NCBI GenBank assembly: GCA_015232315.1
Contig: JADFZZ010000002.1
Coordinates: 1 to 64,000, forward strand
Direction of reading: 5' to 3'
Length of the DNA stretch: 64,000 nt
Source: SAR324 cluster bacterium
Lineage (GTDB): Bacteria; SAR324; NAC60-12
In this document: piece after piece, positions 5,641 through 35,900 of the stretch
How positions within the stretch are numbered: position 1 is the stretch's first letter
Layout of the letters: every line of letters begins with the position of its first letter
Made by a program: the position numbers and the translations under genes
The notes under the pieces: model-generated
What the model saw: only the letters and a program-made list of their open reading frames with translations
What the model was told of the DNA's origin: nothing
Database searches by the model: none

Positions 5641-5752
5641 GGTGGCCTTTTTAGAAGCAATACAGAAAAATGCGAATCCTGAGAAACACTCAAAAAATAA
5701 TGTAAGCGTTCAGCTTTTAGTATTCAGCGTTATAGGGTGCTGATTTGATGCT

Positions 5753-27769: not shown

Positions 27770-29266
27770 TCAAAAGGAAACTTTGAGTTCCATTTTTCCT
27801 GAAACAAACGTGGTTTCTTTCAGGGCAACATAGGTGGGACTGACGACCGATTCCAGGCCATCCGCGATTTTCCATTTGAGGACTGGCGCGAAAATTTGCC
27901 GGAGGGTTTCTCCGTCACTGTTCTGATAGGAGGCAAACAGGATGGTTGTCCCCAGAGCATCGCCGGGGAAAAAGGACGCGCTCACATGCCCGGACACAAA
28001 ATTGGTCACTTCCTCAGACTGCCCCATCAACGCATTGGTTTGAAGAAAAAGAGGGGTTGAATCATTCCAGTCGCTCACCAGCAATTGGCCGACATACAGA
28101 TTAACAATCGCGGAGGAAATATAAAATTCAGCGCCGGTCACAACCTTCTGCCAGTTGTTTTTGATGAACGGATCATCCCCGTTTTCGTCTTCTGTCTGAT
28201 TGTTCACATACGCCAGTTTGAGCAACGCGCTGCCGCTATTGTACTGCACGTCCAATCCCGGACTTTTCAGAGAGTGCCAGGTTCGTTGACTGGCCTCATT
28301 GTCATCCACCATCACATCCGCAACAGGATCAAGCCCTTGAACATAGCTCAAGGCCATGTCCAGATTTCCCTGTGTGAATGAATAACGCAGGGCAACCTGC
28401 TGTCGATCGGAGTGAGCTTCGGGCAATTGATCGGGTAACAGATAGTAATAGTCCGCATAAGCCGGATCAATATTGACTTTGGCCATCGGAATGTAGAGGA
28501 CGTCCAGAAAGCTGAAATCACCAACATACTGTTTTAGTAAAATACCGGTGCTCGCCATTTTGCTATCTTCAAATTCAGTGCTACTGAATGCCATGTTCCT
28601 GGAATTGATGCGGTCGGTGGGCACTTCAAGTCCTTCCATGAAGCCCCAGGTGATCAGTTGATTTCCGATTTTCCAGGTCCGACTGCCGTCAAACACTTCT
28701 ATGAAGGCCTCAACCATCCGGATTGCTGTCCGGGATGCGTCATCATCGGTGACATCATTGTATTCCACATTGACTGCCGTAAACAAACGGGCGGTATCGC
28801 CCAGAAAACCTTCCAGCTTAAGCTGCATGCGGGCACCAACATCGGTGAACTGATTCTCATCCTGATGAGCCGGAGCATTCAGTCCCTGAACTTTCATGGC
28901 CTGAAACCTGGCCCAAAGATCATCCGCATAATGGGTGCTGTTCCAATACATCAAGGGTTTCAGATAGCCATTGACCATGAGAGAATGGTTATCCTCTTCC
29001 AGGGAGGCACCTGTCTCAGTGGCGGCCTCCGAACTCAGGGAATCACTTTGAGGCGCGGAACTGTCAGACAGGTCTTCCAGTCCTCCATTTTCTGGACTGT
29101 CGGCAAGCCCTGACAAATCGTCCAGTATCCCGGCCTCTGTTGTCGCGGATTGCACTGCGTCGTCACTGTTTTCTGCCAGACCGGATAACTCCTCAAGATC
29201 CGCGGCCAGTGGATGATAAATCCACACCACGAACAGGAATGCCACCATCATAATTTTGCGAATCAT
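27770..29266 (-). CDS. Outer-membrane beta-barrel protein with N-terminal acidic motif repeats
   Basis: This 498-residue protein has a signal peptide (cleavage after HPLAA), an acidic, serine-rich mature N-terminus with three related motifs (LEELSGLAENS 24-34, LDDLSGLADS 48-57, LEDLSDSS 63-70), and a C-terminal region of alternating beta strands ending in phenylalanine (MELKVSF), as in DUF1302-like porins. It should be the outer-membrane component of the RND/LolA-like operon. It is the last gene of the set, 41 bases after the LolA-like gene. The N-terminal motif also occurs in the RND protein. Confidence 0.75.
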   Translation of the reverse strand: MIRKIMMVAFLFVVWIYHPLAADLEELSGLAENSDDAVQSATTEAGILDDLSGLADSPENGGLEDLSDSSAPQSDSLSSEAATETGASLEEDNHSLMVNGYLKPLMYWNSTHYADDLWARFQAMKVQGLNAPAHQDENQFTDVGARMQLKLEGFLGDTARLFTAVNVEYNDVTDDDASRTAIRMVEAFIEVFDGSRTWKIGNQLITWGFMEGLEVPTDRINSRNMAFSSTEFEDSKMASTGILLKQYVGDFSFLDVLYIPMAKVNIDPAYADYYYLLPDQLPEAHSDRQQVALRYSFTQGNLDMALSYVQGLDPVADVMVDDNEASQRTWHSLKSPGLDVQYNSGSALLKLAYVNNQTEDENGDDPFIKNNWQKVVTGAEFYISSAIVNLYVGQLLVSDWNDSTPLFLQTNALMGQSEEVTNFVSGHVSASFFPGDALGTTILFASYQNSDGETLRQIFAPVLKWKIADGLESVVSPTYVALKETTFVSGKMELKVSF

Positions 29267-29307: not shown

Positions 29308-30168
29308 TTACCACCATTTTCGGGTCAGATACTGAAGATTGAAAATGGACGGATCAACCTTGTCCGCTTCCTGTTCCACATCAAAGCGGTCAATTTCCAT
29401 AACGGTTTTGGTGCCCTTGATCACGTTTTTCATTTCAAAGCCGCCCGGTACAAAAATTTTCTGGTCATCGCGGTTTTTCTTGACCAGGAATGACAGCAAC
29501 TGCATCTGCTTGTATAATTGTCCTTGCAGATTATAGATTTCGCCCTTGAACACCAGTCCGGAGCGAGGATCCATCCAGATGATGGTTTTGCTGTAGCCGT
29601 AATCGTCCTTGTTCTGCTGACTTTTGAATTCGCTCTGGATTTTTTCAACTTGCAGGGATTTGCCTTTGAAATTCACAGTGTCGGTTCCAAGCCATGTATA
29701 GTTGTAATCATTGATATCCCGTGCGGCCATATCTCCATTGGAAAAATCAGAACCCATGAAGGAGGAGCTTTTGTCAGAACCAATGACCCGTTTGGGTTTG
29801 CGGAGTCCTTTGAGATAGATCCACTGATCATCGTCAGCACCTTCCTGTTCAATCATGAGTGCGCTGTTGCCCTGATCATCAGCCGGAAAATAGAAGTAAC
29901 TGATAGCACGACTCAAGCGTTTTTGCGGGTCCTTATAATTTTCATGGAAATTGGCGGATCGGGCTTTTTTGGTGAAAATCAACTGTTCCTGGGAATCATA
30001 GATCTTGAACACATTTTCACTGAGTGTTTTTTCAAAAGCCGGAAGTTTGTCCACGGCTTCCATAATGGCCCGGCCTTTTTCTTCTGGTGTTTCTGCCCTC
30101 ACAGGGTTCAGGCTGGTTCCCAAAAACAGAATACAGGCAATGCTTCCCAACAATAATTTTTGTTTCAT
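29308..30168 (-). CDS. LolA-like outer-membrane lipoprotein-sorting family protein
   Basis: The 286-residue protein has a signal peptide (LLLGSIACILFLGTSL) and a LolA/LolB-like half-barrel pattern (GRAIMEAVD at the start, later WIYLKGLRKPKRVIG, GSDFSNGD, DPRSGLVFKGEIYN). Proteins of this family sit next to MMPL-type RND exporters and are thought to carry lipids across the periplasm. ATG 30168 follows an aaggag site, so the upstream 28 codons of open frame are not used. Confidence 0.85.
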   Translation of the reverse strand: MKQKLLLGSIACILFLGTSLNPVRAETPEEKGRAIMEAVDKLPAFEKTLSENVFKIYDSQEQLIFTKKARSANFHENYKDPQKRLSRAISYFYFPADDQGNSALMIEQEGADDDQWIYLKGLRKPKRVIGSDKSSSFMGSDFSNGDMAARDINDYNYTWLGTDTVNFKGKSLQVEKIQSEFKSQQNKDDYGYSKTIIWMDPRSGLVFKGEIYNLQGQLYKQMQLLSFLVKKNRDDQKIFVPGGFEMKNVIKGTKTVMEIDRFDVEQEADKVDPSIFNLQYLTRKWW

Positions 30169-30258
30169 GGTGTGCTCCTTGGATGATTGGTTGTTCCCGA
30201 TTTGAATCACAGAAATGACGGTCAGGTATCGGGCCCGGTCCTGACCGGTCATGCCTCT

Positions 30259-33200
30259 TTAATGCTTTGTTTTGTTGTCAATCTGATTTTTTTCCATTTC
30301 AAAAAACCTGGGTTTTAACACCAGAATCAACGCTGGCAACAGCGTCATCGCCCCCAGAGAACTGTAAATCATGGTTCCAGCCATCAGGGCTCCCATGGCG
30401 ATATTGGCCACAAACGCTGAAGCGATCAACACCAGAAACCCCACAGCCACAGACACCGCATTGATCAGAATCGCCTTGCCCGAAGAGTGAATGGTGTTGA
30501 AATAGGCGTGTTCCAGATCATCCCCCTGACGCAACTGGGTCTTGAATCGTTCCAGAAAATGGATGGTGTAATCCACACCAATCCCAATGGAGATGGAAGC
30601 CACCATCATGGTTCCCGTATTGATTTTCCAGCCCAGCAAATAAATCATGCCGAAATTCGCCAGAACTGTAAAAAAGAGGGGAATGATGGCAAATAGCCCA
30701 CCGACCAGCGACCGGAAAATAAAAAATGTGACCGCGAAAACAAACACAAAAGACCATGCGATACTTTTTGCCTGGGAAGTGCTGATCACGTTGGTGACTT
30801 CGGTAATGGTTGGCGCATAGCCGGCCACACGGACATCGGCAATATAAGGATCATTGGCTGGAAACAGTTTTTTAAGACCTTCCCGGATCTGTGTTTCATA
30901 ATCCATGATAAACGCGCTGCTGCCATCCCGTGTGAGAATCGACATCTGGAATTCTTTCAGATCCGGTGTGACCATGCCTTCAAACGTATCCCGATTGGCA
31001 TTCAAGGCCTGATTCAGCAACACACCGGTAATTCCCCGATCGGTCAAGGTTGGATCCGCGATGTTGTCTGTTTCCACATTGGGCAGACGTTCATAAGTGG
31101 GGTCATCGTCATGGTAAAACACCCGATAGAATTTTCTGACCAGATCCACCGGACTCACCACAAAACCTGTGGGTTGCATGACGTGTCCCTCGATTGTGAT
31201 GGAAGGAGAGGTCATGGCTTCAGCAAATTCCTGCATTTTCTGAATCTTATGCAGCACCTGAGTCTGGGTCAGATCCGCTACAAAAAAATCATGCAACTGA
31301 TTGAACGCCCGTTGTAATTTGAGGGCTGATTCTTCCTGTTTGTGTTGTCGAAGCTGAATCACAGCGGAGGCGGTGCTTTCCCATGTTTCCTGAGTCAGCC
31401 CCAACTGTTGATGAATCTCCTTCAATCCGGCAAGCTGTTCCGACGAAAGATCTTCATAAGGTCCTTTTTCCACCGTTGCGCTTGTTTCAGTGGAATCAGC
31501 CAACCCCATCAGATCGTCCAGACCGCCGCCGCTGTTTGTAGCCGTATTTTCCTCAGAAGAAACGCCCATCAGTTCATCCAGTGCATTGGCTTCTTCCGAG
31601 GTCAGCTCCTTCTGCTGTTTTTCCTTGGTGGTTCCAGTTTCTTCAGGAGTGACCGCAACAGCATATTCTTCGTTAAGCACATGTCCGGTGACTTCCATAA
31701 TCTGTTTGATCCCGGCCTGGTTTTTTACGGGGTCCTTCACCAGTTCAGTCAGCGAATGTATCTGGTCATTCAGCGGGGAATAATTGCTTTCAGGAGTTGC
31801 CTTCACAAAGGCGTCCCATGCGGAATTCAACCGCTGAACCGCGACCGTGAGTGACTCGATCGCCTCAGGATGATCAATGAGAACTTCCGGACGAAACCGG
31901 AACAGAAGATTGACCAGTCCGGTTCCACTCAATTTACGATTGATGAAGACATCACTTTGCTTGATGGGGTTGTCGTCCTTGAAATTGGACATCTGTCCGC
32001 CTTCATATTTCAGTTGGGGCATCACAAGTGCGGAGGCGATCATGAGCACTACGAAACCCGCAATGAACGCTTTGGGATGTTTGACGACCAGTGCCGCCCA
32101 GGCATGCATCAGCTTGTCAATGGCGTGGCCTTCCGCATGAACGTTGTCCCGTTTCAAGGCTTTTGTTTTCTGTGGGATTTTCCACCATGTCAAAATGGCG
32201 GGACTGAATGTGAGCGACAGGAATAGCGCACCCGCAACGCCCACCGCCGCAAAAATCCCGAACTGTTGAATAAGGGTCAGATCGGACGAAACAAGAGAGA
32301 GAAATCCGGCAACAGTGGTGGCTCCTGCCATAAGGATCGCAACACCCACATGCTCAACGGTGATCTGCAGAACTTTTTTACGGTCTTTGGAATAGTGAAT
32401 ATCTTCATAATAGCGGTTGAGCAGGTGAATCCCATAGGCGGTGCCCGTCGCCAGCAGCACAATGGGCAACATCGAAGATATGGCGGTGACTGGCACATGA
32501 GCCATCGCCATACAGCCCAAGGCCCAGATCATGGAAATGATCACCGTTATCATGGGAATGAATACCCCGACCGCTGTCCGGAAACTCAGCAGAAGAATGA
32601 AAAAGATGAGCACAATGGCCACGGGCATCAACATTCCCATATCCTTGCCGATCATGTGGGCAAAAATCGCGGTCACGACGGGTGCTCCGGCTATATGAAA
32701 TTTTAGGCCCGGAACCGCATGTTTCCTGATAATTTCCTGTGTCTGTTCATAAATCAGATTCAGATCATAAATATCCTTGACGTTGTATAACTTGAACTCC
32801 AGATTTTCACGACTCAACGCGTCAATGTTTTCCAGTGAAAATTCATACAGATTGGTGGTGAAATTCTCCCAGGTATACATCTCAGGATGCAGGAAGAAAT
32901 TCCGGCTTTCCACATAACTCATGAGGTCATCAAATTTTTCCAGAGTGAGTTCGCCGGATAACAGTTCCTGAAGACGTGGATGTTCCTCGAACGTGCTGGA
33001 TAAATAGCCGGTCAGGTGCTTTTTCAGAATACGCCGCATGGTTTGTGTATGCTCTGAGATAAAAGCATCATCATAGGTGGTCAGGCCATATTTTTTACCA
33101 TACACGTCAAAGGGAAACACACTGTCCCGGCCCATGTAGCGGTTTTTCAGTTTTTCCGCGTCAATGGCGGTTTCCAGTTCCAGCAGGGCAAAACGCCGTT

Positions 33201-33852
33201 TGTAATCCCACTTGCGCAGCATCTGGACCTGAATGGACGTGGCGGTCAGGTCTTCGGAAATCAAACTTCCCCGGGTGGTGCGGTCATTCAGCAAATGGGC
33301 CTGCAACCCGGGAATGATTTTTTTCAGATCCTCCTCCGACTCAGGCAACAGTTCTTCCGTTTGATCCGTAAAGGGAATGCCCAGTTCTTTTTTCAGTTTT
33401 GTGATCACACTGCCTGAAATGACAGAACCGGTTTCCTTGTCCAGAATGGCATCTTCAAGATTGGCGATGCTCCGGATATTTTCCTGATCAATTCCCATCG
33501 GCAGGGTGAGGGTTTCAGTTTTTCCGGTGAGCAGGCTCTGAATGGTTTTGGTGCCCTTGAGCCCCTTGATATCCTCAATAATTGCTTCCATCGCCCGTAG
33601 CACGTCAGGTTGCATGACGGTTCCACCAGGCATTTCAAGACCAATCATCAGGGCTTCCTGATAATTGAAATTCTTTTTGTAATAATCATTGGCTTTGGTC
33701 GTGGGCATGCTCTTGGGCAGGAATTTGGTCATATCCGCTTCCATATACAACCGGGTTTTGATCTGATACATCATGAACGCGGTGATGCCAATCACGACCA
33801 CCACCACCAGGCCCGGAAACCTGGTACTGAAACGACCTAAATATTTCATCAT
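30259..33852 (-). CDS. MMPL/RND superfamily exporter with motif-bearing periplasmic loop
   Basis: This 1197-residue protein has the two-fold RND layout: helix 1, a large periplasmic loop, five helices with MMPL motifs (LLSFRTAVGVFIPMI, ATGTAYGIHLLNRYYE), then a second half with another large loop and IGIGVDYTIHFLERF. It resembles HpnN/MmpL lipid exporters but is longer. The second loop (about residues 650-1010) includes an acidic stretch with LDELMGV (758-764) and LDDLMGLADS (778-787), matching motifs in the barrel protein. It is the first structural gene after tetR and is likely repressed by it. Confidence 0.88.
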   Translation of the reverse strand: MMKYLGRFSTRFPGLVVVVVIGITAFMMYQIKTRLYMEADMTKFLPKSMPTTKANDYYKKNFNYQEALMIGLEMPGGTVMQPDVLRAMEAIIEDIKGLKGTKTIQSLLTGKTETLTLPMGIDQENIRSIANLEDAILDKETGSVISGSVITKLKKELGIPFTDQTEELLPESEEDLKKIIPGLQAHLLNDRTTRGSLISEDLTATSIQVQMLRKWDYKRRFALLELETAIDAEKLKNRYMGRDSVFPFDVYGKKYGLTTYDDAFISEHTQTMRRILKKHLTGYLSSTFEEHPRLQELLSGELTLEKFDDLMSYVESRNFFLHPEMYTWENFTTNLYEFSLENIDALSRENLEFKLYNVKDIYDLNLIYEQTQEIIRKHAVPGLKFHIAGAPVVTAIFAHMIGKDMGMLMPVAIVLIFFILLLSFRTAVGVFIPMITVIISMIWALGCMAMAHVPVTAISSMLPIVLLATGTAYGIHLLNRYYEDIHYSKDRKKVLQITVEHVGVAILMAGATTVAGFLSLVSSDLTLIQQFGIFAAVGVAGALFLSLTFSPAILTWWKIPQKTKALKRDNVHAEGHAIDKLMHAWAALVVKHPKAFIAGFVVLMIASALVMPQLKYEGGQMSNFKDDNPIKQSDVFINRKLSGTGLVNLLFRFRPEVLIDHPEAIESLTVAVQRLNSAWDAFVKATPESNYSPLNDQIHSLTELVKDPVKNQAGIKQIMEVTGHVLNEEYAVAVTPEETGTTKEKQQKELTSEEANALDELMGVSSEENTATNSGGGLDDLMGLADSTETSATVEKGPYEDLSSEQLAGLKEIHQQLGLTQETWESTASAVIQLRQHKQEESALKLQRAFNQLHDFFVADLTQTQVLHKIQKMQEFAEAMTSPSITIEGHVMQPTGFVVSPVDLVRKFYRVFYHDDDPTYERLPNVETDNIADPTLTDRGITGVLLNQALNANRDTFEGMVTPDLKEFQMSILTRDGSSAFIMDYETQIREGLKKLFPANDPYIADVRVAGYAPTITEVTNVISTSQAKSIAWSFVFVFAVTFFIFRSLVGGLFAIIPLFFTVLANFGMIYLLGWKINTGTMMVASISIGIGVDYTIHFLERFKTQLRQGDDLEHAYFNTIHSSGKAILINAVSVAVGFLVLIASAFVANIAMGALMAGTMIYSSLGAMTLLPALILVLKPRFFEMEKNQIDNKTKH

Positions 33853-33884
33853 AAGCTGTCCTTCCTTAAAACATGAATGACTGT

Positions 33885-33909
33885 CTGACTACTTTTGAAT
33901 ATGAGTCAG
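33885..33909. promoter_or_regulatory. Candidate TetR operator upstream of the RND gene
   Basis: The site is CTGACT-N13-AGTCAG, a perfect 6-bp inverted repeat, 33 bases before the RND start. The same arms with the same spacer occur once more, upstream of tetR at 34541-34565. Confidence 0.65.
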
Positions 33910-33943
33910 AGGTGGATAAAAAAAATCATGAATAGTTCATGAT

Positions 33944-34507
33944 TTACTGGCGCAGCCCGCCGAAAATCAGTTCAAACAAATCCCTCACTTCCTGTTCAAT
34001 TTCCGCAGAATCCATTTCCAGCCAGCGCAAAATAAACTGAAACTGAATTTTTTCAATCATCACAGCGTTTTTATGGTGATCTGCCTTACGAAAAAGCCCT
34101 TCAGTTTCCCCCTCCTCCAGCAGTTGTTGAATGTCATGGATCGCTTCCTGTTTTTTGTTTGAAAGTTTGACGTGGGTGTCAATCATTTCCTCAAAGACGA
34201 CCCGGGACATGGAGTATTGCAGGATCAACCCCTTGATGTGTCCAAGTTTACAGAGCAAAAGCCGAATCAATTTCTGTTCAGCGTTTTTCTCAGCTTTCAG
34301 AACTTTTTTCAATTGTTCACGAATGCTTTGATAATCCTGTTCCGCACAGCGGATAAACAGAGCTTCCTTGTTATCAAAATAATTATAGACGGTGCCTTTA
34401 CCAACGCCTGCGTCATGAGCGATTTCCTCAACATTGGCTTTTTTAAAACCATATCTGAAAAAATGCTCCCGCGCCGCATTCAGTATCTGTGTTTCTTTCG
34501 GTAACAC
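33944..34507 (-). CDS. TetR-family transcriptional regulator
   Basis: The 187-residue protein has a clear TetR helix-turn-helix near the N-terminus (ILNAAREHFFRYGFKKANVEEI, GVGKGTVYNYFDNKEALF) and an all-helical ligand domain. I set the start at GTG 34507, which a gaaggag site precedes by 8 bases. A longer frame to 34537 has no such site. It sits 91 bases upstream of the RND gene on the same strand. Matching inverted repeats before both genes suggest that it represses itself and the exporter operon. Confidence 0.88.
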   Translation of the reverse strand: MLPKETQILNAAREHFFRYGFKKANVEEIAHDAGVGKGTVYNYFDNKEALFIRCAEQDYQSIREQLKKVLKAEKNAEQKLIRLLLCKLGHIKGLILQYSMSRVVFEEMIDTHVKLSNKKQEAIHDIQQLLEEGETEGLFRKADHHKNAVMIEKIQFQFILRWLEMDSAEIEQEVRDLFELIFGGLRQ

Positions 34508-34540
34508 CAGAAAAACTCCTTCAAAAACATGCACCAAAAA

Positions 34541-34565
34541 CTGACTGAACTCCAGATACAGTCAG
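34541..34565. promoter_or_regulatory. Candidate TetR operator upstream of tetR
   Basis: CTGACT-N13-AGTCAG, extended to 7 bp per arm (ctgactg/cagtcag). It lies 33 bases upstream of the tetR GTG start, where it would overlap the promoter and give autoregulation. Confidence 0.65.
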
Positions 34566-34856
34566 CTATACGTAATTGTCAACACCGAAAAACTGTTGCT
34601 GGAATTTATTTCTATTTTTGAATCTCAAGAACTTCGTCCCGGACCTGCGCAATCAAGGGCATTTCACAGGAGAGCACCTTACTGGTAAGTATTTGTGAGG
34701 AGGCAAACCGGACATGTCGGGAAAGATAAGCGTTCATCCCATTGCGTTTTTTTTCAGGAGGCCTTATCAAACTTTAACCATTCCGCATCATCTTCACCCG
34801 GACGCACCATGAACCGCGCATAATGATTCCGGGGTCAAACCGCATAAAGGCGTTGT
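34566..34856. other. Spacer with possible decayed coding remnant
   Basis: No clear gene lies in this 291-base region between the divergent tetR and peptidase genes. On the minus strand a 41-codon frame (34612-34737) has no convincing ribosome-binding site, and another short frame precedes it. They could be remnants of a small decayed gene. Confidence 0.4.
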
Positions 34857-35900
34857 ATGCACACAATGAAAGCTAGATATTTTCAGTCCCTTCAAATTCC
34901 TGAATTGATTGAACTGGAAGACCTCATCCGCAATAACAGTGATTATCTGGAGGCGGATATTGTCACCAGAATCCGTATCTCCGAACAGATCATATTGCCT
35001 GTTTATTGTCTCCGGCTGGGATCAACCGCGGAGGATTGCCCGAAGATTGGATTTTTCGGGGGATTTCATGGCTTGGAACGCATCGGAATCCAGATTTTGC
35101 TGGTACTGATCAGCAGTCTGTTGGAACGAATGCGCTGGGATGTTTCGTTGAATGACCGGTTATCCCGCATACAACTGATTTTTATGCCGCTGGTCAATCC
35201 GGGAGGCCTATGGAATCACACTCGCAGCAATCCCAATGGCATTGATCTGATGCGGAATTCACCCGTCATCGCCCATGATAATGTGCCCTGGCTGGCTGGA
35301 GGACACCAGGTCAGTCGAAGGTTGCCCTGGTTTCGGGGAGAATCGTCCATGATGGAACCTGAAGCGCAGGCGGTTTGTGATGTGGTTGAAAAATATCTGT
35401 TTGCGGCGCCATTCAGTTTTTCCCTCGATTGCCATTCCGGTTTCGGTTTCCGGGATCGGGTATGGTTTCCCTATGCAAAAACCAAAGAACCATTTTATCA
35501 TCTTCCCGAAATGCTGGCACTCAAGCAATTGTTCAACCGATCCTATCCCTACCATAAAAACTACCTGATGGAACCCCAATCCCGAAGTTACACCACGCAT
35601 GGAGATATATGGGATCACCTGTATGACCAATCCCTCAAACAAGGAAACAGAACTTTTTTACCCCTCACCCTGGAAATGGGATCATGGGCCTGGATACGCA
35701 GCAATCCGTTGCAGTTATTCCGGTTGTCCGGACTGTTCAATCCCCTGCTAAACCACAGAAAAAACGCTACCTTGCGTCAACACCTCATTCTGATGGAATT
35801 CCTGATCAACGCTGCTTGTTCCTGGACCTACTGGATGCCGCACAGTGATGCCCGAGAAGCACTGGAGCGTGACGCTCTCAAATTGTGGTATTATCGTTAA
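34857..35900 (+). CDS. M14-like zinc carboxypeptidase / deacylase family protein
   Basis: The 347-residue protein has the M14 zinc site HxxE in FGGFHGLERIG, the third ligand in LDCHSGFG and a candidate catalytic glutamate in LTLEMGSW. The segment NPGGLWNHTRSNPNGIDLMRN is also typical. M14 enzymes cut C-terminal residues from peptides or deacylate amino acids. There is no signal peptide, so it should be cytoplasmic. The gene is monocistronic, and I cannot name a substrate. Confidence 0.82.
   Translation: MHTMKARYFQSLQIPELIELEDLIRNNSDYLEADIVTRIRISEQIILPVYCLRLGSTAEDCPKIGFFGGFHGLERIGIQILLVLISSLLERMRWDVSLNDRLSRIQLIFMPLVNPGGLWNHTRSNPNGIDLMRNSPVIAHDNVPWLAGGHQVSRRLPWFRGESSMMEPEAQAVCDVVEKYLFAAPFSFSLDCHSGFGFRDRVWFPYAKTKEPFYHLPEMLALKQLFNRSYPYHKNYLMEPQSRSYTTHGDIWDHLYDQSLKQGNRTFLPLTLEMGSWAWIRSNPLQLFRLSGLFNPLLNHRKNATLRQHLILMEFLINAACSWTYWMPHSDAREALERDALKLWYYR

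Follow-up and report, generated by a model that had tools for sequence, protein, structure and literature searches.

Among the described repressors closest to the system studied here, QacR, CgmR, CprB and Ms6564 bind as pairs of dimers to operators of 22–32 bp, according to the available portions of the published accounts (PMC4150764, PMC9210681). The present locus resembles QacR, CprB and CgmR, as far as these portions describe them, in that a TetR-family repressor is located beside an efflux gene and a long inverted-repeat operator, with arms too distant for one dimer, lies over promoter elements, presumed ones in our case. It differs from them, within the same portions, in its TGACY arms, its N13 spacer and its overlapping palindromes, offset by 8 bp, and the pairing of dimers proposed here is deduced from spacing. 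A further parallel is MAB_4384, the MmpS5/MmpL5 repressor of Mycobacterium abscessus, for which the accessible part of the report (PMC5895659) likewise describes a TetR repressor acting on an MMPL-type exporter via an intergenic palindrome, but with divergent gene order, a 27-bp operator of other make-up and a mycobacterial pump without an outer-membrane partner. With respect to the pump, AmeABCD from Castellaniella defragrans, in the accessible part of its description (PMC6394551), also combines an HAE3-type pump of the inner membrane with a LolA-like (DUF1329) protein of the periplasm and a protein of the outer membrane, while its exporter measures 787 aa compared to 1197 aa here. Unlike AmeABCD as described there, no AmeC-like gene is listed in the window, i.e. 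the entire 64,000-nucleotide stretch of DNA analysed, and the outer-membrane protein lacks a Pfam match.

By sequence, the solved structures nearest to the TetR protein are those of FadR from Bacillus halodurans and B. subtilis (5gpa, 5gp9, 3whb), which are also TetR-family repressors. The score against Bacillus-type FadR (NF053878) amounts to 64.5 bits, below the NCBIfam cut-off of 200, and unlike for FadR the neighbours of tetR are pump genes instead of fatty-acid genes. The FadR operator is also shorter than the TGACY-N13-RGTCA operator considered here.

The locus and its pair of inverted repeats

On the minus strand tetR is followed by the exporter gene, a LolA-like protein gene and the gene of a presumed outer-membrane protein. 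The features to which we refer are:

27770..29266, minus strand: presumed outer-membrane protein completing the operon; same neighbour in relatives, name putative
29308..30252, minus strand: LolA-like outer-membrane lipoprotein-sorting protein (Pfam PF17131 3.5e-40, DUF1329 1.4e-8)
30259..33852, minus strand: MMPL-family, HAE3-like RND exporter, 1197 aa (Pfam MMPL, PF03176, 5.4e-56)
33878..33882, plus strand: additional TGACT half-site flanking operator 1, 8 bp outward from its left arm
33885..33909, no strand assigned: operator 1, CTGACT-N13-AGTCAG, in the gap separating tetR from the exporter gene; exact pattern match
33923..33945, minus strand: AT-rich hairpin and T run between tetR and operator 1, possible terminator of tetR; -8 kcal/mol, z -2.79
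33944..34507, minus strand: tetR, 187 aa (Pfam TetR_N 7.5e-15); start GTG 34507, listed ORF starting at TTG 34537
34541..34565, no strand assigned: operator 2, CTGACT-N13-AGTCAG, upstream of tetR; exact match, core conserved in the clade
34553..34558, minus strand: TATCTG, presumed -10 box of tetR at a spacer of 18, located within operator 2; read from sequence
34577..34582, minus strand: presumed -35 box TTGACA of tetR; read from sequence, with TTGAC at a similar distance in loci L033–L036

The TetR_N helix-turn-helix domain scores 54.9 bits, above the Pfam cut-off of 24, and the start of tetR is best placed at GTG 34507, since a GGAG motif and the match of the N-terminus to relatives support it. 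For the exporter, PF03176 reaches 190.4 bits (cut-off 20.5), while its best NCBIfam model, HAE3 (TIGR00921), remains with 237.9 bits below the cut-off of 351.9; we therefore name it HAE3-like only. An internal ATG may be the true start of the LolA-like gene, and the presumed outer-membrane protein returned no match in Pfam or NCBIfam. A divergent gene for an M14 zinc carboxypeptidase-like protein (window positions 34857–35900), whose start is about 290 bp away from operator 2, has no site close to that start.

The preliminary description had reported the pair CTGACT-N13-AGTCAG at 33885–33909 and 34541–34565 and its absence from the rest of the window. Both copies are exact at these coordinates, and at 0 mismatches a third copy does not occur in the window. 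Allowing up to 2 mismatches adds just two matches, at 5740 and 8353, and the resulting total of 4, compared to a shuffle mean of 1.69 and reached by 10 of 100 shuffles, places these two near chance level. A genome-wide scan for CTGACTN13AGTCAG of the kind the preliminary description had proposed yielded 2 exact copies in 5,251,075 bases on 88 contigs, both at the tetR locus, with 0 for the control pattern, and thus not many random hits. Pairs of 6-bp inverted repeats that share arm sequence and spacer length and lie at most 1 kb apart occur on average 0.15 times per shuffled window, with a maximum of 2 in 40 shuffles, so that the pair on its own is suggestive and not decisive, while the comparative data make it strong. 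The same distance of 33 to both start codons, also put forward originally, is nearly but not exactly equal, with 33 for tetR (GTG 34507) and 32 for the exporter gene (ATG 33852); since this distance varies among relatives, its equality is uninformative and was dropped as a meaningful feature. The core common to the clade, TGACY-N13-RGTCA, refines the pattern with 6-bp arms and corresponds at operator 2 to TGACT-N13-AGTCA at 34542–34564.

Conservation of the site with the regulator, not with the pump

We searched 58 genomes with the 187-aa TetR as query, with class and phylum represented by 52 genomes. The best relatives of this TetR are found in G010, G047, G050 (two copies) and six genomes of genus g2, and together with them it forms a clade of 11 with support 100/99, all 11 of which carry the core within 300 bp upstream of tetR. 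Loci L033–L036 retain the order tetR–exporter in all four cases and the core upstream of tetR in 4/4, where the G010 exporter gene is cut by the contig end and L036 is without a LolA-like match. At the G010 locus (L033:172-194 and 227-249), two operators 55 bp apart occupy the gap between tetR and exporter, each with an extra half-site. Two sites are present at all six g2 loci. Among 20 more distant TetRs (L144–L163) the site was found at L148 alone, as two overlapping sites, and it was found at none of the three unrelated TetRs adjoining homologous exporters (L110, L113, L115). In these counts L150 and L013 are one gene, L164 and L168, found via the motif, are left out, and 38 distant TetR loci from a contig search of named relatives lie outside the site scan.

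For spacer and shuffle controls we used six representative loci, namely our own, L033–L036 and L038, the latter standing for the six g2 genomes. A spacer of 13 occurs in 6/6, spacers of 5, 17 and 21 in one each, and a spacer of 29 in three, where the right arm pairs with the TTGAC from the presumed -35 box. After shuffling, the upstream regions gave 1–3 matches per 2000 per locus (chance about 0.001), and more than one locus matched in 0 of 2000 rounds. With a pairwise identity of about 35–52% the aligned upstream regions have diverged, so that the site stands out from its flanks.

Homologues of the exporter are present in 9 of 52 genomes (E up to 1e-60); a partial homologue, G051:C482, starts at a contig end and was dropped. 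Exporter loci without this TetR (L108–L115, L117) carry the core upstream of the exporter gene in none of nine cases, and the one core site at L112 lies inside the exporter gene. The g2 loci read gene by gene (L038, L041) place TolC-like, adaptor and RND pump genes after tetR, with pump families assigned by profile at L038 as the one g2 locus so treated. Since all nine TetR-less exporter operons are without the upstream site, the site goes with the TetR and not with the pump, and the comparison shows, as judged from sequence, that regulator and putative site travel together while the pump changes. At four of the nine TetR-less exporter loci (L108, L109, L111, L114) a divergent gene of 512–534 aa adjoins the exporter, and the three of these genes that were tested (L108, L109, L114) are sigma-54 activators. 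The regulator of this exporter type seems to be exchanged between loci.

TetR autoregulation combined with repression of the exporter operon, as first proposed, emerges as the best reading: the strict pair is unique, the core accompanies the whole clade, and it is absent upstream of the exporter operons without the TetR. We assign a probability of roughly 85% to TetR binding both sites and repressing both tetR and the exporter operon. In the absence of inducer, TetR would occupy both operators: at operator 2 it would overlie the presumed -10 box of the tetR promoter, and at operator 1 it would be positioned directly ahead of the MMPL/HAE3-like exporter gene, whereby tetR and the operon of exporter, LolA-like protein and outer-membrane protein would both be held down. 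A hydrophobic pump substrate would presumably release TetR. A point against this reading is that TetR proteins can also act as activators.

Half-sites and the number of dimers

The arms of the operator are 18 bp apart, corresponding to about 61 Å at 3.4 Å per bp. In the available parts of the reports on solved TetR-family complexes, recognition helices are 30–42 Å apart, and 45 Å for one complex by one measure (PMC4150764, PMC5895659, PMC8053128), so that the operator appears longer than the span of a single dimer in these complexes. In addition, the pattern TGACYNNNTGACYN13RGTCA, which includes the extra half-site, matches 33878–33908 and altogether 4 places in 52 genomes, namely operator 1 and three G010 sites. 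Counted over 14 sites, which include 3 of the 6 g2 genomes, exact extra TGACY half-sites occur at offset -8 in four, +8 in three, -16 in three (there identical to the -35 box) and -4 in one, the remaining offsets up to 30 being empty; these counts are not independent, since the sites are related. From the arm spacing and the extra half-sites at 8-bp offsets, our analysis moderately favours two TetR dimers per operator.

One dimer per operator, with half-sites longer than TGACY and extra half-sites that arise by chance or as promoter parts, would agree with operator 2, L035 and L036, which display no exact extra half-site at 8 bp. We nevertheless consider it rather doubtful, in view of the 61 Å between the arms compared to the 30–45 Å in the portions of the structural reports cited above (PMC4150764, PMC5895659, PMC8053128), of the clustering of exact extra half-sites at -8 and +8, and of the position of the full four-half-site forms, which precede tetR-like frames at 5/5 places. 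This full form, TGACY-N3-TGACY-N5-RGTCA-N3-RGTCA, was found with at most 1 mismatch in 4 of 383 genomes (G010, G014, G103, G339). Within the G103 phylum, two of 398 genomes carry it, G103 itself and its congener G574, and within the G339 phylum it is G339 out of two genomes; control counts were 0 among the matches listed. Each of the five distinct places is located just upstream of a tetR-like frame, which in G014 is a fragment where the contig ends. In the tree, the G339 and G103 TetRs, from genomes of different phyla, group together (98/94), a join that is unsure since L164 is a long branch.

At L164:1501-1531 and at L168, from two genomes of a single genus in another phylum, a tetR-like gene follows the four-half-site operator. 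The next gene in L164 presumably encodes a protein resembling YhgE/Pip-type membrane proteins.

Building on the two-dimer reading, we tentatively propose, at somewhat under even odds, a modular operator in which a pair of TGACY-N13-RGTCA palindromes, overlapping with an 8-bp offset, would accommodate two dimers and in which versions with two, three or four half-sites would tune strength. This grammar would persist across phyla and stay with the regulator while the pump, MMPL/HAE3-like or TolC–adaptor–RND, is exchanged.

Promoters, specificity and significance

In our own locus and in L033–L036 a TTGAC box lies 11–12 nt ahead of TGACT. The box inside the spacer reads TATTAT or TATCAT in these relatives and TATCTG here, which is poor with just 3 of 6 consensus positions, and the consensus promoter scanner did not report the presumed -35 box of tetR. 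Since operator 2 covers the presumed -10 box of tetR, autorepression is the simplest reading. At operator 1 the scanner finds no promoter, and the -35 is poor. The hairpin and T run between tetR and operator 1, at 33923..33945 not listed by the terminator scanner, imply that the exporter may need its own promoter there. We consider it likely that operator 1 marks a second promoter and is not a roadblock. A reading of the repeats as RNA hairpins was set aside, since the sites overlie promoter boxes.

Operator 2 alone could control a real promoter, with operator 1 acting as a roadblock on transcription from the tetR promoter or as a tuner of the tetR/exporter ratio, and with no second promoter. 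The missing consensus promoter at operator 1 would fit, as would the absence of any exporter operator from three of the five MMPL-linked loci. A separate one is found at our own locus (one site) and in the same-family relative G010 (two sites), while L034–L036 have no site in front of the exporter gene, which seems to depend there on the tetR promoter alone. We judge such a single-promoter arrangement unlikely for our locus, since the hairpin and T run would leave read-through from tetR weak and G010 retains two sites in the same gap.

A two-box inverted repeat does not by itself identify its protein, and the sites could in principle belong to another, more global regulator acting here. This we hold to be very improbable, as the site tracks the TetR clade and not homologous exporter operons without the TetR, accompanies the TetR also where the pump operon is another one, and has just two strict copies in the genome. 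The relaxed core occurs there at 17 places, below the 47 of the control, so that the core alone is without genome-wide predictive power. A wider regulon is not claimed: 12 of the 15 relaxed-core places outside the pair fall within ORFs of 280 aa or longer, one lies in a 108-aa frame and two lie in no ORF of at least 80 aa, one of these beyond a gene's 3' end and the other 54 bp before a gene. The latter, TGACTCGCAATGAATGTGAGTCA at L173:1524-1546 (G000:C4:95423-95445), is intergenic and precedes the gene of a 343-aa protein whose N-terminus resembles a signal peptide and for which no Pfam family scores above the cut-off. It is possibly a further target, and chance is possible as well. That operators 1 and 2 are a chance pair of inverted repeats we regard as practically negligible and reject on conservation: identical 6-bp inverted repeat pairs anywhere in the window have a shuffle mean of 4.6, but within 1 kb of just 0.15, and the core is conserved in all 10 clade relatives.

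Keyword searches of the literature returned no published TGACY/N13-type operator of the TetR family with overlapping palindromes. The regulation itself, a pump repressor that would also repress itself, is familiar; what appears new is the binding motif, a candidate operator of a previously uncharacterised clade of TetRs, in a phylum sampled here by 52 genomes. The operator could be used to find such pump operons and to pick probes and reporters for an inducer search.
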